In this document: in pieces, positions 6,889 to 7,879 of the stretch
Position numbering within the stretch: the first letter of the stretch is position 1
How the letters are laid out: each line of letters starts with the position of its first letter
NCBI GenBank assembly: GCA_022566355.1
Contig: JADFJB010000085.1
Coordinates: forward strand, 1 to 20,488
DNA from: a candidate division KSB1 bacterium
GTDB taxonomy: Bacteria; Zhuqueibacterota; JdFR-76; DREG01
DNA: 20,488 bases
Direction: 5' to 3'
Translations under genes and position numbers: made by a program
The notes under the pieces: model-generated
The model's database searches: none
Told to the model about the DNA's origin: nothing
What the model saw: only the letters and a program-made list of their open reading frames with translations

Positions 6889-7560
6889 ATGCTACGACAG
6901 AAAATGAAACCAATTGTCCTCTTGGCGTGGATATTTCTCTTAAGCTGTACTGATTCTTCCACTGGACCAGCAGGACCTACTGTAGAGTCAAGGGATGGGA
7001 AATTCTTTATCGTGGATCGAACCGGAAAAAGTTGGGATGTCACCCACGCTAAGGAAAAGTACAATATGGACCCATTCGCGTTTCAATTTGGCTTAGGGCC
7101 TTTTGCCATAACACCACTCCTGAATCCGGAAATGCTTGCCCCAGGCGATCCTGGTTACCCCGAGGTTCCATCTCCTTTTATGGTACTAGGGGTTAGTCTG
7201 GCTAATGACCCGCGAGCCTATCCCATTAGAGTTTTATCGTGGCATGAGATTGCCGATGAGGTGTTCGGCGAAACCCATGTTGCGGTAGCATACTGACCGC
7301 TCGTCGATTTGGCTGCCGTGTACAGCCGTGAGATAGATGATAAGGTACTAACCCTAAGTGCAAGCGGTTGGACCTTTGATAACACTTTCGTTTTGTTTGA
7401 CTATGAAACTGAAAGCCTCTGGTATCATTTGCCGGGAGAGGTCGGACTGACTTGCATAAGTGGTCAATACGCCGATCGGAAACTTGCGGAGTTTCCATCG
7501 ACAAAGACAAGGTGGAATACTTGGAGAGACGCCCATCCGACATCTAAGTTTCTCAAATAA
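6889..7560 (+). CDS. DUF3179 lipoprotein with in-frame TGA: candidate selenoprotein (or nonsense-interrupted gene)
   Basis: Reading through one TGA at 7294-7296 (codon 136) gives a single 223-residue DUF3179-family protein in one frame. The start has a strong AGGAGGG ribosome site (6876-6882). A signal peptide ends in the lipobox LLSC (Cys20), so the product should be a lipid-anchored envelope protein. Before the TGA the family features DPRAYPIRVLSWHEI and HVAVAY appear; after it come PLVDLAAVYSR, LTLSASGW, YETESLWYHLPG and the closing TRWNTWRDAHP. In DUF3179 proteins the residue after the conserved Tyr is normally Cys (Tyr-Cys-Pro-Leu), and the TGA sits exactly there. A hairpin suited to a bacterial SECIS follows. 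If the TGA is simply a stop, the product is a 135-residue fragment. Function of the family is unknown. Confidence 0.7.
7297..7335 (+). promoter_or_regulatory. Possible bacterial SECIS-like hairpin downstream of the in-frame TGA
   Basis: GGCTG (7311-7315) and CAGCC (7323-7327) form a 5-bp stem closing a 7-base loop CCGTGTA that contains GU. The loop begins 20 bases after the TGA (19 bases between), within the roughly 16-37 base distance known for bacterial SECIS elements. The first two loop bases are C rather than G, which departs from the usual preference, and there is little support for a longer lower stem. Confidence 0.35.
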
Positions 7561-7607: not shown

Positions 7608-7879
7608 CGGATTAAAACACAAAAGTTAAATGAATCTCGAAGGAGAGCTGAAAGAAAAGCTGATTTGCGTACAAAATATGGAACGGTTATAGCTCAAAAA
7701 ATAATAAACCAGAAAATATGGCTTGGAATGTCTGCAGAAATGGCACGTAAAAGTGGGGAGAGCCTAATTCAATAAATAAATCAGTGGGAAGTTTTGGATT
7801 ACACTAACAATGGATATATCAAAATAATTACCTTTATTTTGAAAATGGTATTCTTAATAGTTGGCAGGAATCAAAATAA
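7608..7879 (+). pseudogene. Decayed small gene with GMSAEMARKSWGEP..INKSVGS..HEQW-type C-terminal domain
   Basis: The frame open from 7608 reads RRRAERKADLRTKYGTVIAQ and then a stretch ending LGMSAEMARKS (to 7754). One missing base then shifts it; in the new frame WGEPNSINKSVGSFGLH continues (from 7754), followed by TAA at 7805 where a Glu codon (GAA) is expected. QWIYQNNYLYFENGILNSWQ then runs to a true stop at 7877-7879. The conceptual product closely resembles a small bacterial domain with the pattern GMTxEMxxxSWGxPxxINRTVGSWGVHEQWVY. Its function is not known to me. There is no initiation codon in a sensible place, so the 5' end is also lost. One frameshift plus one nonsense codon in an otherwise readable sequence indicates recent inactivation. 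Confidence 0.7.

Follow-up and report, generated by a model that had tools for sequence, protein, structure and literature searches.

One open reading frame in the window, by which we mean the whole 20,488-nucleotide stretch of DNA analysed here, runs from 6889 to 7560 and is split by a single TGA codon (7294-7296), raising the question of whether this UGA is decoded as selenocysteine (Sec) or marks a gene broken by nonsense mutation. The initial annotation proposed the former, in a lipid-anchored DUF3179 protein, and regarded the latter as a serious alternative. The frame is otherwise open, as had been described: it begins with an ATG at 6889, preceded by a GGAGG ribosome-binding site, and ends with a TAA at 7558-7560, leaving 135 codons 5' and 87 sense codons 3' of the TGA. 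Both pieces match DUF3179 (PF11376), the 135-residue piece at 34 bits and the 87-residue piece at 58 bits, each exceeding the curated cut-off of 27 bits, whilst the read-through protein scores 116 bits (E 2.6e-33). The features of the locus are as follows:

6889-7560, + strand: gene for a 223-aa single-repeat DUF3179 lipoprotein, with the TGA read as Sec (PF11376 in both halves).
6889-6948, + strand: lipoprotein signal peptide with lipobox LLSC, Cys20 being the predicted lipidation site (from sequence; Cys20 invariant in alignment A1).
7180-7557, + strand: DUF3179 repeat, present in one copy (two in full-length members), with a predicted Rieske-like fold (profile match, AlphaFold2 model, duplication test).
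7294-7296, + strand: TGA codon, read as Sec136, in an invariant (Y/W)-U-P-L motif (TGA conserved; Cys in the Cys homologues).
7310-7328, + strand: putative SECIS apical stem-loop UGGCUG-CCGUGUA-CAGCCG, loop at 7316-7322 with an invariant GU (covariation, folding).

Residues 98-222 of the read-through protein align to positions 27-147 of the 292-position, two-repeat PF11376 model, the whole of which is not spanned. Full-length DUF3179 (L023:1495-2562) is a tandem duplication, the two halves aligning with one another (hhalign E 1.8e-18) and the Cys or Sec being kept only in the first repeat; with only the first half of the model covered, the window protein therefore represents a one-repeat branch. 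It is 45-68% identical to 27 relatives of the same architecture, hereafter the short class, which share the lipobox Cys, an N-terminal segment of approximately 60 residues (IVDRTGKxWDVTHA) and one DUF3179 repeat; no NCBIfam model matches the window protein. The LLSC20 lipobox and its invariant Cys bear out the proposed lipid anchor, at the level of a prediction.

The region 3' of the gene is indeed decayed, as first noted, with no ORF of 60 aa or more between 7560 and 9030. A relic reading TKYGTVIAQKIINQKIWLGMSAEMARKSGE at 7660-7775 of the window, apparently the leftover of a small protein gene, lies in this region. Such decay would fit a dying gene, in which TGC or TGT had mutated to TGA in this strain alone and the downstream half was a relic, and decayed copies do exist in the family: one short-class copy (L136, G007:C169:59518-59979) has lost its N-terminus, carries a TAA near its end and has a broken hairpin. 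However, when the window gene was compared with four relatives, dN after the TGA (hairpin excluded) was 0.16-0.28, versus 0.27-0.42 before it, with dS saturated. Constraint on the downstream half is thus no weaker than on the upstream half, and a relic is ruled out.

We then compared the TGA across copies and genomes. The source genome (G000) encodes four DUF3179 genes, each with exactly one internal TGA in the same column, within a Y-U-P-L motif in three short lipoproteins and a W-U-P-L motif in one full-length protein. We scanned 84,980 named species using peptide patterns from which the U column was excluded. All 27 short-class loci recovered in named genomes have TGA, and none has TGC or TGT; the bins carrying these loci are named Calditrichota/KSB1, Latescibacterota, Gemmatimonadetes, Handelsmanbacteria, Zixibacteria, Bacteroidota and Acidobacteriota. 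Across 82 phylum genomes no intact short-class copy with E below 1e-55 lacks the TGA, the TGA copies in 59 phylum genomes are spread over many families, and the final short-class gene set carries it in 39/39 copies. Close relatives with TGC or TGT, which had been named as evidence that would count against Sec, were therefore absent from the 27 loci. In alignment A3 column 136 is invariantly U or C, the TGA column being Cys in the Cys homologues, as had been expected. The sole short-architecture Cys homologue (L139, VYCILADLGG) comes from a genome (G028) with no SelB and ten DUF3179 matches, none with a TGA. Since the four paralogues share this TGA with all of the relatives, which come from several phyla and thus from independent genomes, a nonsense mutation in this strain is excluded for practical purposes, and the hairpin described below, maintained by compensatory change, also speaks against it.

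Several further copies were observed during this comparison. Short-class Sec genes are frequently arranged in tandem, as pairs with a TGA in each gene (L101, L110, L111, L112, L114, G013:C36 and G015:C14). A Handelsmanbacteria copy (L107:4001-4705) has an extra in-frame stop 5' of the TGA and is either a pseudogene or an assembly error, and a full-length TGA-containing DUF3179 gene (G040:C78:18524-21096) lies approximately 1.6 kb from selC.

If the UGA is recoded as Sec, a SECIS element is expected close by, and a GGCTG/CAGCC hairpin with GU in its loop had been pointed out at a suitable distance (7310-7328, with the loop at 7316-7322 beginning 19 nt after the TGA). Its folding energy alone is unremarkable (z -1.0; MFE -12.3 kcal/mol for 7297-7341), so the case for a SECIS rests on comparison. 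Over 39 genes, codon entropy at positions +5 to +11 after the UGA is 0.23, versus 0.86 in 65 other columns (p 2.4e-5), these near-frozen codons including TTG GCT GCC GTG TAC AGC. Offsets 16-21 pair with 29-34 in a 6 bp stem around a 7-nt loop. Pooling 47 distinct sequences from both classes, short and full-length, we found 96.5% of cells paired, a figure that falls to 18-53% when the partner is slid by 1-3 bases. Double changes occur at four of the six pairs. The compensatory cells number 21, whereas shuffling yields 4.4 on average and none of 2000 shuffles reached 21. Among the changes are a switch from GGCTG/CAGCC to GACTG/CAGTC, a T-A pair that is C-G in the other class, and a C-G pair inverted to G-C in L047. 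The GU of the loop is invariant. Codon freeze and compensatory change together place the hairpin far above chance.

The published bSECIS limits allow a stem of 4-16 bp, a loop of 3-9 nt, a spacing of 16-37 nt and an MFE no higher than -7.5 kcal/mol (PMC13188914); the window hairpin, with a 6 bp stem, a 7-nt loop, 19 nt of spacing and -9.7 to -12.3 kcal/mol, falls within these four limits. The same model, as set out in that source, places a G among the first two loop positions. In the window loop, CCGUGUA, the G is third, and becomes second only if the C7316-A7322 mismatch is taken to be stacked; at the same place in the loop base, the full-length class forms a U-A pair. The folding check that had been proposed thus bears out stem, loop, spacing and energy, with the position of the G depending on how the loop is delimited. 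Like the SECIS of E. coli formate dehydrogenase type, the window element is a hairpin just 3' of the UGA, within the coding region, with a small GU loop; unlike it, the window element has G at loop position 3 of a 7-nt loop, and its sequence is nearly invariant across phyla.

Decoding of UGA as Sec further requires a dedicated machinery, and we searched the G000 assembly (4.62 Mb, 213 contigs, 98.5% complete) for its genes. A selD gene is present (L073, G000:C12:35945-36865) and itself carries a TGA at the catalytic Sec17 position (TCG-U-AAKISP), followed by a SECIS of -17 kcal/mol whose loop starts with G. There was no match for selA in this assembly, none over the cut-off for selB, and none over the cut-off or by pattern for selC. 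SelB-family matches were rejected on frame length and N-terminus, the best (L001) being a 400-aa EF-Tu-like frame and the remainder resembling other translational or sulphate-assimilation GTPases. The eight best tRNA-Sec-like matches are Tyr, Ser, Leu, Lys and Trp tRNAs. The check on sel genes suggested by the initial annotation was therefore answered in part, by a selD with its own Sec codon; the lack of selB and selC, which it would have counted against Sec, is literally what the assembly contains.

We read this lack as a likely assembly gap. SelB was detected in 41 of 59 phylum genomes. Of the 14 genomes in the phylum sample that carry the TGA, 13 have it, as do 14 of the 15 named genomes in which short-class TGA genes occur, three of these being chromosome records; the exception among the 15 is G085, the genome of L104. 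Relatives encode a canonical tRNA-Sec with anticodon UCA. A LiaF-like gene that lies beside selA in G001 and near selA in G002, the two same-family genomes, was also not found in G000, which suggests that it and selA fall in one missing segment, or possibly that they are really absent; a search for the selA-flanking gene, intended to locate the contig end at such a gap, found nothing in G000. The selC genes of relatives (L075-L090) are located close to contig ends at a frequency above chance (combined p 0.0014; p 0.54 for selB as control), and four further assemblies with SelB yielded no selC, as though it were readily lost from such bins because it sits at an integration site or is otherwise hard to assemble. 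Because both same-family genomes have selAB, an assembly gap is the likeliest explanation for the absence of selABC from G000, and the selABC of this strain would then be located outside its assembly.

Two other readings of the missing genes have to be weighed. The lineage may have recently lost selABC, leaving four genes intact but now truncated on translation. The absence of selAB and selC at this level of completeness, together with the selA-flanking gene, agrees with such a loss, as does G085, which likewise lacks SelB; against it, selD retains its Sec codon and SECIS, the four paralogues are intact with good hairpins, and selC shows the behaviour at contig ends described above. We consider a recent loss very improbable. 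Alternatively, a suppressor tRNA or an altered genetic code may cause UGA to be read as Cys, Trp or some other amino acid, which would fit an assembly in which selA, selB and selC were not found. Yet TGA ends 7 of the 14 window ORFs checked and 6 of 30 long ORFs elsewhere in G000, and is thus an ordinary stop, which rules out a global code change as the explanation; plain suppression would give the hairpin no role, and the relatives have a standard tRNA-Sec and SelB. This reading is just as improbable as a recent loss.

Taken together, the comparison of sequences lends strong support to Sec insertion at residue 136, through the TGA conserved in independent genomes, the Cys homologues, the covarying SECIS, the constraint on the protein after the TGA, the selD with its own Sec codon and the SelB of the named genomes. 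It is very probably a functional selenoprotein gene, in which UGA 136 is decoded as Sec by SelB and Sec-tRNA via the SECIS, yielding a lipid-anchored product. The hairpin, its stem starting approximately 13 nt after the UGA, would direct SelB and Sec-tRNA to UGA 136, and the product, with its one DUF3179 repeat, would be exported and lipidated and so be extracytoplasmic.

We then turned to the structure of the product. AlphaFold2 predicts the window protein with a pLDDT of 92.2 and places U136 at the end of a strand, in what would be a small beta domain. Foldseek returned no match with E under 0.001, and there is no solved structure related by sequence. Among the structural matches listed, 50 of 50 chains are Rieske-fold proteins, with a best Z of 6.9 for the short model and 8.4 for the full-length model. 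The likeness to Rieske [2Fe-2S] domains is one of fold in these matches to predicted models only: Rieske domains have C-x-H...C-x-x-H ligands, whereas the window-type domain lacks both C-x-H and C-x-x-H, alignment A3 has neither a second invariant Cys nor an invariant His in the domain, and Rieske ferredoxin profiles gave nothing significant against alignments A3 and A4. We therefore treat the Rieske-like fold of DUF3179 as a lead and not as membership. A match of L031 to an NCBIfam Rieske dioxygenase model is weak (E 5e-4, 19 bits against a cut-off of 830) and likewise a lead only. A similar ungapped 20-residue spacing to the next motif had suggested that Sec136 might correspond to the first Rieske Cys ligand; the aligned structural ranges argue against this, and we do not put the idea forward.

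The biochemical function of the window protein can be sketched from these features. Sec136 would most likely act as a redox selenolate, reacting with an oxidant or a disulphide. The residue at +3 after the U is V, I or K in 28 short-class rows (UPLV in the window); lacking the C/T found at this position in published DUF3179 selenoproteins, the protein would have to be regenerated by an outside thiol or, in the majority of members, perhaps by Cys189, which is present in 24 of the 28 rows. Near short-class genes we also observed a gene for a protein of approximately 310 residues that resembles an outer-membrane barrel (GAWTQKK...EFNH) and belongs to no Pfam family. It is close by, in either orientation, in 10 of 30 contexts (barrel genes at L018:541-1494, L096:3620-4618, L099:4612-5625, L105:4672-5628, L108:4645-5565 and others); the 30 contexts comprise the window, its own paralogues L018 and L019, and the 27 named-genome loci.

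DUF3179 (PF11376, motif UxxC/T) already appears in tables of selenoprotein families (PMC9312934, citing Zhang and Gladyshev 2007; PMC13188914), and 'DUF3179 domain-containing (seleno)protein' is a RefSeq name in use. The family as such is therefore not the new selenoprotein that was first proposed; what looks undescribed is its single-repeat, lipid-anchored, Sec-only branch with UPLV in place of UxxC/T, which appears to be missing from the accessible text of the literature mentioning DUF3179. Published DUF3179 selenoproteins share with the window protein the Pfam domain and the Cys/Sec position, and L031 (UPLC) and L047 (UPLT) fit the published motif. The window branch differs from them in having one repeat rather than two, in being a lipoprotein, in carrying TGA in every intact copy found and in having V/I/K at +3, hence no C/T partner; because UPLV does not fit UxxC/T, we count the window protein as a variant and not as a plain member. 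The full-length W-U-PLANTAVVY proteins of the phylum, including the window's own paralogue L016, have the same Sec column, SECIS register and GU loop, but differ in having two repeats, no visible lipobox and A at +3.

According to PMC13188914, nearly all selenoproteins have Cys homologues. A branch without close Cys forms is therefore unusual, and points to selenium-requiring chemistry. It is conceivable, if doubtful, that the Sec-only DUF3179 branch constitutes an extracytoplasmic selenoenzyme class, in which an isolated selenolate, housed in a Rieske-like domain without a cluster, performs chemistry that Cys cannot replace, with the neighbouring outer-membrane barrel as its partner. For genome analysis, the absence of selABC from a bin is not by itself proof that Sec is not decoded. 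Since gene callers that end a frame at each TGA split these genes in two, the branch is likely mis-annotated in Calditrichota/KSB1, Latescibacterota and other uncultured phyla. DUF3179 is a domain of unknown function, for which the tandem duplication and the predicted Rieske-like fold together provide a testable structural idea.
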